Made by a program: the position numbers and the translations under genes
Shown: positions 909-43,566 of the stretch, one piece after another
How the letters are laid out: each line of letters opens with the position of its first letter
Position numbering within the stretch: position 1 is the stretch's first letter
Notes under the pieces: model-generated
The model's database searches: none
Told to the model about the DNA's origin: nothing
What the model saw: only the letters and a program-made list of their open reading frames with translations
DNA from: Eubacteriales bacterium
GTDB taxonomy: Bacteria > Bacillota > Clostridia > Monoglobales > UMGS1388
Direction of reading: 5' to 3'
Length of the DNA stretch: 50,924 nt
NCBI GenBank assembly: GCA_029004515.1
Contig: JAQVYH010000007.1
Location: 1-50,924 of the forward strand

Positions 909-1189
909 GGCGATGCATTGCATCGCCTCAGACCGACGAAAAAGTCGTTCAACCGCAAGCAAAATAAAAAACTTACCTCTTGTTTGGTCTATAAAATATA
1001 ATATAATAAAATTATAATGGAGTAGGTTTTATCGAAAACCTACTCCATTACTCTCTTTCACCCTTACCGACCTCTACCGTACCCTCGTACGCCGACGACA
1101 TCGGAAATGTCAAATTTAACATCCTTTTTCACAGTCTGTCAGCGCATCGATAGGTTTATCGACGTGCTGGGGCGATGAATTGCATCGCC
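909..1189 (-). repeat. Terminator-embedded structured repeat, copy A (~243 bp core, 928-1170)
   Basis: The core at 928-1170 is about 80% identical by eye, in the same orientation relative to its upstream gene, to 31590-31831. It is flanked by near-identical 19-bp hairpins: ggcgatgaattgcatcgcc (1171-1189) and ggcgatgcattgcatcgcc (909-927). Read on the minus strand, the distal hairpin is followed by TTTTTG, so together they look like one intrinsic terminator of the 1197-2048 gene that was split and duplicated by insertion. The core has a perfect 15-bp hairpin (AATGGAGTAGGTTTT with its complement), a hairpin at the proximal end, and the sequence CGTACGAGGGTACGG. There is no open reading frame of note and no obvious terminal inverted repeat. 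Confidence 0.75.
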
Positions 1190-1196
1190 TTTAATT

Positions 1197-2048
1197 TTAT
1201 ACGATTTTACTAATGAGATGCCTGCCTATTTTCTCCATAAAAACGCAAGCATCCAGCATTAATTCTTCAGGATAATGTTCCATCGAATGATCTGCTTCAA
1301 ATGTAAATACTCCGCTGTAATTAATCTCCTTCAGCGCAGCAGTTATCCCATCCCAGTCCTGAAGTGATGAATATGGCCAAATGTGCATATCTTCTTTAAA
1401 GTTATTATCGTGCACATGAAGCGCCTTAAGCCTATCATGTCCAAGCTCTCTAATAAATTCACAAGGGTCCTGACCAACTAGTCCGCAATGTCCTATATCA
1501 AGGCAAACTGTAAAATATCTACTATCAAGTTCATCGGCAAATTCACAAAGCTGATTAGGATTGCTACATACATTTTCAACTATGTAATCACGCTTCTTAT
1601 CCCTACCAAACATATTTTCAAGAGCAACCTTCACACCATAATCCTTACAATAAGGCTGAAGACTTCTATAAAATTCAAGTATAGCTTCCTTATCATGATT
1701 AATAAAGTGAGTAGGGTGAACGACTACAATTTCAGCGCCTAGAATTCCTGCTACTTCAATAGACTTTTGAATATAAGGAACTATAACTTTATTGTAATCT
1801 TCATCATTTGGCTTGTGAGAGGGAAATGGAGCATGAGCCTGATTAAATCTACATCCGTATGCTTCAACTAGCACTCTGAGTTCTTTTGCATAAGATACAT
1901 AATCGCTTCTATTAAGCATAGCGTTTTCACTAGTAATATCAAACATAGAATAATCTATTGCATCAAACCCTGCTTCACATATCCATTTAATCGCTTTTTG
2001 GTCCCCAAATCTTTTTGAACATAAATTAGTTAATGTTGATAATTGCAT
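1197..2048 (-). CDS. Sugar phosphate isomerase/epimerase-like TIM-barrel protein
   Basis: This 283-residue protein has the pattern of the xylose isomerase-like / AP endonuclease 2 TIM-barrel family: HAPFP (about 73), VVHPTH (about 108), ALENM (about 141), CLDIGH (about 183), ALHVHDN (about 209) and FEAD near the C-terminus. The His, Glu and Asp residues would ligate a divalent metal. Members isomerise or epimerise sugars and inositol derivatives, and the substrate cannot be read from sequence. It lies 10 bp downstream of the PRTase gene, probably in one transcript, and its terminator carries copy A of the repeat. The start follows a GAGGTGCG ribosome site. Confidence 0.75.
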   Translation of the reverse strand: MQLSTLTNLCSKRFGDQKAIKWICEAGFDAIDYSMFDITSENAMLNRSDYVSYAKELRVLVEAYGCRFNQAHAPFPSHKPNDEDYNKVIVPYIQKSIEVAGILGAEIVVVHPTHFINHDKEAILEFYRSLQPYCKDYGVKVALENMFGRDKKRDYIVENVCSNPNQLCEFADELDSRYFTVCLDIGHCGLVGQDPCEFIRELGHDRLKALHVHDNNFKEDMHIWPYSSLQDWDGITAALKEINYSGVFTFEADHSMEHYPEELMLDACVFMEKIGRHLISKIV

Positions 2049-31570: not shown

Positions 31571-31850
31571 AAGCCCCTACAAAGGGGCTCAGCGTGTCGA
31601 TAAGCCTATAGACACGCTGGCAGACTGCGAAAAAGGAAGTTAAATTCGACATACCCGACATCGTCGGCGTACGAGGGTACGGTAGAGGTCGGAAGGGTGA
31701 AAGCAAGCAATGGCGTAGGTTTTATCGAAAACCCTACGCCATTATAATTATATATTATTATTTTTTATAGAAAAAGCAAGAGATAAATATTTTCTATTTT
31801 GCTTGTGGTTGAACGACTTTTTCGACGGTCTAAGCCCCTACAAAGGGGCT
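31571..31850 (-). repeat. Terminator-embedded structured repeat, copy B (242-bp core, 31590-31831)
   Basis: The core is flanked by an exact 19-bp direct repeat, aagcccctacaaaggggct (31571-31589 and 31832-31850), itself a terminator-type hairpin. On the minus strand only the distal copy is followed by TTTTTTG. Thus the terminator of the FAD oxidoreductase gene appears to have been interrupted between stem and U-run with duplication of the stem. The core starts with hairpin CAGCGTGTC/GACACGCTG and contains AATGGCGTAGG pairing with CCTACGCCATT. Compared with copy A, C-G replaces A-T in this stem, a compensatory change. The stretch 31443-31570 otherwise holds only the A+T-rich sigma-gene upstream region. 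Confidence 0.78.
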
Positions 31851-31858
31851 TTAACAAA

Positions 31859-33148
31859 TTAATCAACTGTAACGCCAAGCTCTGTAAGGCGAGCCTGAAT
31901 CTCATTAACATCAACATCTCTTGGGATAATATTTTTCTTAACTGCTATTGCAGCAGCAATACCTGCCGCCTGTCCCATATTCATACAAATAGGCATAACT
32001 CTATAATTTGAATGTGCCTTATGTGTTCCGGAAATATTTCTTCCCGCCAAAAGAAGCCCATCAATCTTAATAGGAACAAGACAACCATAAGGGATTGTAT
32101 AGCCTGTTGCCTGTTTAAAATGTTTCTGGCAACCTGTTTCGTCAAGACCGCTACCCGAAATATTATGAATATCAAAGTTAAAGTGAGCTTTGGTCACAAC
32201 CCAATCATCAAAAACACGTGCCTCTGCAATATCCTGTTCGGTAATTGTCTTTACACCCTTAAAATGACGAGTTTCTCTAATACCAATAAATGATGCACTT
32301 GTTATAATATAACAATTTTCAAAACCGGGAACAAACTCGTTAAGATATTTAATAATATCATCCATCTGATTTCTGCACGTAAGAGTAGCTTTAGTAAGGT
32401 CATTACTATCTGTACCATCCACATTAATTACATTGGTCATATTACAGGTGATAACATCTTTGAGCGGGTTGTTGTAAACCAGAAGATGACCTGCAGGGAA
32501 TGGTATATGCAATTTTGCAAGTGCCTGAAGCTCGCCTTTTTCGGTTTCATATGTATGTTCAAATCCATGTAGAAGAACCATTCTATTCTTATCAACGCCA
32601 CCAACCTTAAACATAAGTGTCATTGGCTGCATTTTGCCATCAGTTTCTCTGCCTTTAATATACTCTGCGCCTGCTCTTGCGGCAATATCACCATCACCAG
32701 AGCAATCAATAACAACATCTGCCATATATGCAACTCTTCCCTGTTTCGCTTCGCATATAACGCCCTTAATCGTGTCGCCTTCCATAACAGGAGCAACAGC
32801 ATATGTATAAAGCTTAACATCAACACCTGCTTCTACAAGCATATTAAGCATCTTAGTCTTTAGTTTTTCAGTATTAATAGAACATCTGGTATCACAGTAT
32901 TCATTACAATCACTTGTCTTATCGAGAATTTCTTCATACAATCCACCTTTGGTATTACCTGTCCAATGGCTCATCATACCAATAGTAGCAACACCACCAA
33001 CATCACCGGCTGGTTCGATAAGAATTGTTTTTACGCCTTCTCTTGCTGCAGAAAGAGCCGCACCAACACCGGCAGGTCCTGCACCAACGACTATAACGTC
33101 TGCAGTCTGTTCAACAGGGGTTGAAAGCTGCTCATTAATCATTTTCAT
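31859..33148 (-). CDS. FAD-dependent oxidoreductase
   Basis: The start at 33148 follows AGGAGTG; the frame to 33181 has no site. The protein of about 429 residues begins with a Rossmann FAD-binding motif, VVGAGPAGVGAALSAAREG, and continues with IGMMSHWTG and DCSGDGDIAARAG. A C-terminal FAD loop follows with GLLLAGRNISGTHKA and GQAAGIAAA. This is the FAD_oxidored family, whose members often act on sugars or glycosides; the substrate is unknown. It is expressed away from, and probably controlled by, the adjacent PocR-type AraC regulator. Confidence 0.8.
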   Translation of the reverse strand: MKMINEQLSTPVEQTADVIVVGAGPAGVGAALSAAREGVKTILIEPAGDVGGVATIGMMSHWTGNTKGGLYEEILDKTSDCNEYCDTRCSINTEKLKTKMLNMLVEAGVDVKLYTYAVAPVMEGDTIKGVICEAKQGRVAYMADVVIDCSGDGDIAARAGAEYIKGRETDGKMQPMTLMFKVGGVDKNRMVLLHGFEHTYETEKGELQALAKLHIPFPAGHLLVYNNPLKDVITCNMTNVINVDGTDSNDLTKATLTCRNQMDDIIKYLNEFVPGFENCYIITSASFIGIRETRHFKGVKTITEQDIAEARVFDDWVVTKAHFNFDIHNISGSGLDETGCQKHFKQATGYTIPYGCLVPIKIDGLLLAGRNISGTHKAHSNYRVMPICMNMGQAAGIAAAIAVKKNIIPRDVDVNEIQARLTELGVTVD

Positions 33149-33221
33149 TAATATCACTCCTAATTGTATGTTCACATACATTATATCAATAATAACAAAC
33201 TATGTATTGTATTTAATTTAC

Positions 33222-38284: not shown

Positions 38285-38321
38285 AAAAAAGACCGCAAAA
38301 TATCATACGAAATTTGCAGCC
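38285..38321 (-). terminator. Riboswitch-associated terminator
   Basis: GGCTGCAAA pairs with TTTGCGGTC (two G-U pairs) and is followed by TTTTTT. The first arm overlaps the 3' end of the c-di-GMP aptamer, so aptamer folding and termination can be mutually exclusive. Confidence 0.7.
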
Positions 38322-38385
38322 TGACAATCATAATTAAATAAGACTCATGGCTTTGCGTCCCACCCTCACGAATGGTTTGCCCTCT
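38311..38385 (-). promoter_or_regulatory. Cyclic-di-GMP-I (GEMM-I) riboswitch
   Basis: On the minus strand the hallmarks occur in order: GGGCAAACCATTCG, then GTGGGACGCAAAGCC, then a variable P3 stem and CAGGCTGC. These match the GEMM-I core, including the tetraloop and the ACGCAAAGCC segment that contacts the ligand. It begins close to the predicted transcription start and ends in a terminator, so it likely controls elongation into the SLH gene. Confidence 0.92.
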
Positions 38386-38396
38386 AATTGTATTAT

Positions 38397-43414: not shown

Positions 43415-43432
43415 ATATTAAAATTCAATAGA

Positions 43433-43519
43433 TTTCAGGGGAGCTTGTAAGCAGGCTGAGAGGAAGTAATCAACTTCGACCCTTAAACCTGATTTGGGTA
43501 ATGCCAACGTAGGAAGTAA
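43433..43519 (+). promoter_or_regulatory. TPP riboswitch
   Basis: The signature segments occur in order: CAGGGGAGC, GGCTGAGAGG, GACCCTT, ACCTGATTTGGGTAATGCC and CGTAGGAAG. They form the thiamine pyrophosphate aptamer. A terminator follows, so TPP should stop transcription of thiC and the rest of the operon. Confidence 0.97.
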
Positions 43520-43530
43520 CAATTGCTTTT

Positions 43531-43566
43531 CAGCGGGAAATACCTTTCAGGTGTTTCCCGCTTTTT
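43531..43566 (+). terminator. Terminator of the TPP riboswitch
   Basis: The stem AGCGGGAAA/TTTCCCGCT, with an inner ACCT/AGGT pairing, is followed by TTTTT. It is the expression platform. Confidence 0.9.

Follow-up and report, generated by a model that had tools for sequence, protein, structure and literature searches.

A 243-bp repeat found in a clostridial genome (Eubacteriales bacterium, contig JAQVYH010000007.1) is, judged from its sequence, a terminator-targeting MITE with ends of the IS1182 family, and it duplicates the terminators into which it inserts. The window, which is the whole stretch of 50,924 nucleotides analysed here, holds two copies of it, A and B (Table 1). The explanation that best fits the observations as a whole is an IS1182-type MITE with hairpin-duplicating insertion and a folded interior module, and we hold it with high confidence. 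The interior module is undescribed, and it is its pairing rather than its sequence that is conserved across many gut bacteria.

Table 1. Features of the element and its surroundings in the window.
Feature	Position	Strand	Remarks
MITE copy B, 243-bp class	31590..31833	+	
MITE copy A	928..1170	-	
H2 module of copy A	1048-1139	-	R1 model match, 81.7 bits
Duplicated terminator stem-loop of copy B, left copy AAGCCCCTACAAAGGGGCT	31571..31589		exact direct repeat
Duplicated terminator stem-loop of copy B, right copy	31832..31850		exact 19-bp repeat
Terminator stem-loop duplicate of copy A, left in window	909..928		20-bp repeat, 95% identical
Terminator stem-loop duplicate of copy A, right	1171..1190		20-bp repeat, 95% identical
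H1, left-end hairpin CAGCGTGTCGATAAGCCTATAGACACGCTG	31590..31619	+	inverted repeat; directly adjoins the duplicated hairpin in every intact copy
Outer inverted repeat TCAGCGTGTCGATAA	within left end of copy B		first arm of H1 plus the preceding T
Inner inverted repeat GCAGACTGCGAAAAAGGAAG	31620..31639	+	from folds, pairs with the right end as helix H0
Conserved 92-nt module holding H2 (91 nt in copy B)	31620..31710	+	R1 model match, 90.8 bits; covariation
H2, stem around invariant loop GTCGGCGTACGAGGGTACGGTA, then AGCAAGCAA	within 31620..31710	+	
H4, central 15-bp hairpin	31709..31743	+	inverted repeat; length constant, sequence variable across lineages
GCTTGTGG, pairing with AGCAAGCAA as helix H3	31801..31808	+	from folds; H3 encloses H4
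Right terminal inverted repeat CGACTTTTTCGACGGTCTAA, consensus ...GTCTGA	31814..31833	+	end invariant across copies; shared with IS1182 elements
Gene adjoining copy A	1197-2048	-	
FAD-dependent oxidoreductase gene, neighbour of copy B	31859-33181	-	PF12831
c-di-GMP-I-GGC riboswitch	38311-38390	-	Rfam gathering match
TPP riboswitch	43427-43532	+	Rfam gathering match

Copies and their terminator targets

The initial annotation had described copy B as a second copy of copy A, about 80% identical by eye, and this was borne out, with cores that are 84% identical over their full length. A whole-genome search returned around 33 copies or fragments of the 243-bp core with best E values from 1e-155 to 1e-17, and therefore the repeat is not a product of chance. 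The exact right end CGACTTTTTCGACGGTCTGA was found in 43 further stretches from other Clostridia genomes, which share the architecture of copy B. Longer variants, enlarged by an additional insert of about 100 bp or longer, were seen at loci L132 and L142 (genome G020) and L143, L147, and L158 (genome G037). One locus (C6:9029) was considered as a longer autonomous element and rejected, as it consists of a solo right end only.

The most striking feature of the element is what it duplicates. The exact 19-bp repeat reported around copy B is present and its interpretation as a target duplication stands; the target, however, is an entire terminator stem-loop of 19-35 bp and not an arbitrary 19-mer. 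Across several genomes, matching flanking hairpins (score of at least 10) were found at 36 of 42 full copies but at none of 1722 mismatched flank pairs. When all copies were read with their flanks, the stem-loop differed from site to site (for example, AAGGATTTGCGCTTTCACGCAAATCCTT and AGCCACTTTACTTTTTATGGTAAAGTGGCT). Replacement of the IS1272 type, in which the stem-loop is deleted and nothing is duplicated, is not what is seen, since the hairpin is doubled at those 36 copies. At two duplicated terminators (L003, the same copy as L052, and L007, the same copy as L056) the left and right stem-loops have loops in opposite senses, TTTT against AAAA and ATTC against GAAA, as though one hairpin had flipped. 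At L147 and L152 of G037, the two terminator copies of each insertion differ by compensatory double changes, and these insertions look recent.

All 31 scored copies in this genome are faced by one or more gene 3′ ends. Neighboring genes are convergent at 14 of these, in tandem at 15, and divergent at none; at the remaining 2 the right-hand gene alone was scored. Genome-wide, the tandem sites hold 7 sense and 8 antisense insertions. Insertion is thus at gene ends in either orientation, and orientation relative to the genes is random. Within the window, copy A lies in sense (minus) and copy B in antisense (plus) to genes that are both on the minus strand; the same orientation for both, as given in the initial annotation, was incorrect. 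At the site of copy B the sole T-tailed terminator-like match is on the minus strand (31590-31571), where the T-tract follows the left stem-loop when reading out of the FAD oxidoreductase gene. As the T-tract is kept at this far stem-loop, copy B would now form part of the 3′ untranslated region of that gene.

Relation to IS1182-family elements

An order-level search with two mismatches allowed in the right end recovered the same end on transposase-bearing elements, and the transposase next to the matching ends belongs to the IS1182 family (NF033551, E 7.6e-48, partial gene). The element ends TCAGNNNGTCGAAAAAG agree with the ends found on autonomous members of the IS1182 family from related Clostridia; CTTTTTCGACAGTCTGA ends adjoin IS1182 transposase genes, with TCAGTCTGTCGAAAAAG at L247, and the inner inverted repeat of copy B is similar to the left end TCAGACTGTCGAAAAAGGGAAG of an IS1182 element at L194. 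Terminal inverted repeats are therefore common to the MITE and to autonomous IS1182, and the same was found for the hairpin target and its duplication. At least seven autonomous IS1182-family elements in related Clostridia likewise duplicate whole hairpins, with palindromic duplications at L238, L239, L240, L242, L243, L246, and L247. A complete IS1182 element in genome G043 (504 aa, 438.8 bits) has ends TCAGACTGAAGACAAAAAG and carries exact copies of GACAGTATGGCATATGGCCGTACTGTC on both flanks. The elements at the seven loci named above are complete IS1182 copies from the class; their palindromic duplications span 22-35 bp, and ends of the kind CAGTCTGTCGAAAAAG or CAGACTGTAGACAAAG are found on them. 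The IS1182 at L259 is more complex and has a larger inverted repeat. At L246 (G310:C1) one terminator hairpin occurs three times, separating an IS1182 element from a second short element, which amounts to two insertions at one terminator.

Because autonomous IS1182 elements show near-identical ends and hairpin duplication, the short element is best read as an IS1182-type MITE, probably mobilized by an IS1182-type transposase. Its design, earlier thought to be without a described parallel, is accordingly of a recognizable kind. Against this reading, the left hairpin of 30 bp that lies beyond the inner repeat is without a counterpart in the autonomous elements seen. The H2 module is absent from those inspected.

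A transposase with matching ends, suggested earlier as a search target, was found on the IS1182 elements of related Clostridia, but no intact one was found in this genome. The sole IS1182 relative here is a weak 476-aa DUF772 protein (L205 2262-3689, G000:C154), a candidate partner. Two rve-domain transposases of the same genome (C42 and C187) were rejected as partners as they have no matching ends. IS1182 matches are present in G037 and G085; by our own count they occur in 10 of 34 module-bearing genomes versus 148 of 357 others, showing no enrichment of detectable IS1182 genes, which speaks against the link. Loss of repeats from MAGs, through binning and contig breaks, is a likely reason and may hide such genes, as many contigs end inside these elements. 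Assemblies break there in G066, G402, G336, G369, and G085, often at the central hairpin or within an IS1182 end, and copy numbers from draft genomes are consequently underestimates. A search for phage, plasmid, or viral carriers of the element found none.

IS1272 and TnSha1, IS1182-family elements of staphylococci, target hairpins or terminators without sequence preference, and the stem-loop is deleted with no target duplication left (PMC4923244; PMC5678879). Duplication of the whole stem-loop was drawn as a hypothetical outcome (path b of Fig. 13), which requires joining of the element's 3′ ends to the stem-loop at its 5′ feet (PMC5678879). The present element is similar to these in its ends, in the transposase family of its autonomous relatives, and in its sequence-independent choice of hairpins or terminators. 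IS1272 reportedly removes the hairpin or takes its place, whereas the present element duplicates the hairpin whole; unlike IS1182-family insertion sequences, it has no gene and contains a conserved folded module. With bacterial MITEs it shares short length, high copy number, terminal repeats, target duplication, and a lack of coding capacity, whereas duplication of a whole terminator stem-loop and a class-wide, covarying structured interior set it apart. Support for the mobile element and for its habit of duplicating terminators is good, and this habit extends the known behavior of the IS1182 family.

A mechanism can be proposed in which an IS1182-type DDE transposase, acting in trans, would recognize the terminator hairpin, whether as an extruded structure or as a palindrome. 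The two 3′ ends would then be joined on opposite strands, each at an outer foot of the stem, after which gap repair would copy the stem-loop and so leave one on each side. Since the target is symmetric, orientation would be random. With a full terminator remaining downstream, insertion would be tolerated and the element would join the 3′ untranslated region.

Other sources of mobility were weighed against these ends and targets. IS1630, an IS30-family element of Mycoplasma fermentans, duplicates inverted repeats of variable length, and this similar target behavior could point to an IS30-type element. Its transposase family differs from the one linked to the present element; moreover, an IS30 transposase was found in only 1 of 10 element-bearing genomes and its ends do not match, so that IS30/IS1630 was rejected as the mobilizer and we give this idea almost no credence. 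A structured, RNA-like interior could also be that of a retro-element or an RNA-guided element that brings its own machinery (a retron, a group II-C intron derivative, a HEARO/omega-RNA, or a bridge-RNA system). HEARO/omega-RNAs and other mobile structured RNAs are repeated mobile elements with a conserved RNA fold, and class IIC introns too favor terminators. The present element differs from HEARO/omega-RNA in its ends, in its target duplications, and in having no Rfam match. Inverted terminal repeats and long target duplications fit IS1182 DDE elements instead, and a guide match is impossible where the target sequence varies at every site. This origin is thus very improbable.

Interior fold and covariation

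In the predicted fold, the outer left hairpin H1 is followed by the closing helix H0 (inner repeat with right end), the long hairpin H2 with its loop GTCGGCGTACNNNGGTACGGTA, and helix H3 (AGCAAGC with GCTTGCGG) around the central hairpin H4. Compared with shuffled sequences, the folded copies gave z-scores from -6 to -13; the window copy scored -6.07 as RNA and -8.07 as DNA, and L089 scored -13.03 as RNA. Almost all copies have an H2 module of 92 nt, and the H2 stem is 18 bp. Stem sequences of H2 are wholly different between lineages, but pairing is kept. In an alignment of 16 sequences, 94.0% of H2 cells were paired, with a covariation score of 0.633 versus 0.205 when shuffled. A larger alignment of 41 distinct rows, which was gathered with a model of the same structure and includes related copies that are not independent, gave 96.8% paired cells; double-change cells numbered 218, compared with 67.5 after shuffling, and the covariation score was 0.638, compared with 0.192 after shuffling and at most 0.137 after sliding.

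The initial annotation had argued for selection on an RNA or single-strand DNA structure from a compensatory change in the central hairpin, GGCGTAGG/CCTACGCC versus GGAGTAGG/CCTACTCC. That change is present in the sequence, and covariation over more copies, proposed there as a check, proved strong and supports selection on a folded structure; the strongest signal lies in the hairpin at 31645-31701 and not in the one cited. In most lineages H4 consists of 15 bp closed by a 5-nt loop, and the stem sequences are unrelated. Its G.U and A.C cells (7 versus 5) show no strand preference, and at L089 it resembles a terminator on both strands. The best reading of H4 is a bidirectional terminator-like stem; a terminator or DNA-palindrome function would explain it as well as RNA would.

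H2 behaves differently in this respect. Among 17 arm families, 20 G.U pairs were counted versus 3 A.C (p = 0.006 against the shuffled ratio, composition-corrected), a test mildly biased by the copy-collecting model, which scores G.U above A.C. The G.U cells are spread, without one fixed wobble column. This excess indicates that pairing is kept on the top strand and points to H2 working in the form of RNA, or of single-stranded DNA, of that strand.

The interior structure might serve DNA, with H2 and H4 forming hairpins or cruciforms that are bound by the transposase or host proteins during transposition. The better folding of the window copy as single-stranded DNA than as RNA, the lack of G.U/A.C asymmetry in H4, and the palindromic nature of both element ends and targets are consistent with this, and a DNA role could apply to H4 especially. 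For H2, the favored strand argues against it, as does the absence of the module from inspected autonomous IS1182 elements. As an account of the interior, we consider this possible but rather doubtful.

Alternatively, the covariation could be mutational, as template switching rewrites palindromes and yields compensatory pairs without selection. The duplicated terminators do show three compensatory double changes between copies as well as the inverted loops of two pairs (L003 and L007). In the same 42 terminator pairs, however, single-side changes number 27 versus the 3 compensatory ones, and the H2 loop and the stem lengths (18 bp and 15 bp) are conserved despite changing stems, for which drift alone is inadequate. 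Rapid sequence drift in palindromes could contribute to the covariation; as its whole explanation it is improbable. As a new family of RNA (or single-strand DNA), the folded module is a strong candidate. Its putative role is most likely that of a 3′-UTR element or a transposition cofactor, and the likeliest sites of action for H2 would be the read-through 3′ UTR and a complex with the transposase.

Distribution and significance

The module model matches 34 of 391 genomes of the class, in 26 of 223 genera, and module-bearing genomes often have at least 11 copies each. For comparison at genus and family level, this genome is the sole member in each. No Rfam family matches the element at gathering score in the window or at 13 related loci, so identification as a known Rfam RNA, the outcome that might have undone the initial annotation, did not occur. 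In the open-access literature, no paper was found on this element or on IS1182 MITEs with hairpin duplication. A structured RNA, undescribed so far and spread across the class, may reside inside terminator-targeting IS1182 MITEs. In each genome these would plant the same fold at the 3′ ends of dozens of genes unrelated to one another, to act as a portable 3′-UTR element or as a cofactor required for its own transposition; we put forward this fuller reading tentatively, at somewhat short of even chances.

These elements provide many natural examples of stem-loop-duplicating transposition, which so far was merely a hypothetical alternative for IS1272. They represent a transposon that uses terminators as safe sites: the terminator is copied and the gene retains its stop signal. 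Should the module prove to be a functional RNA, many gut Clostridia would contain a new RNA family in high copy number, and it would offer a testable link between transposition and RNA structure.
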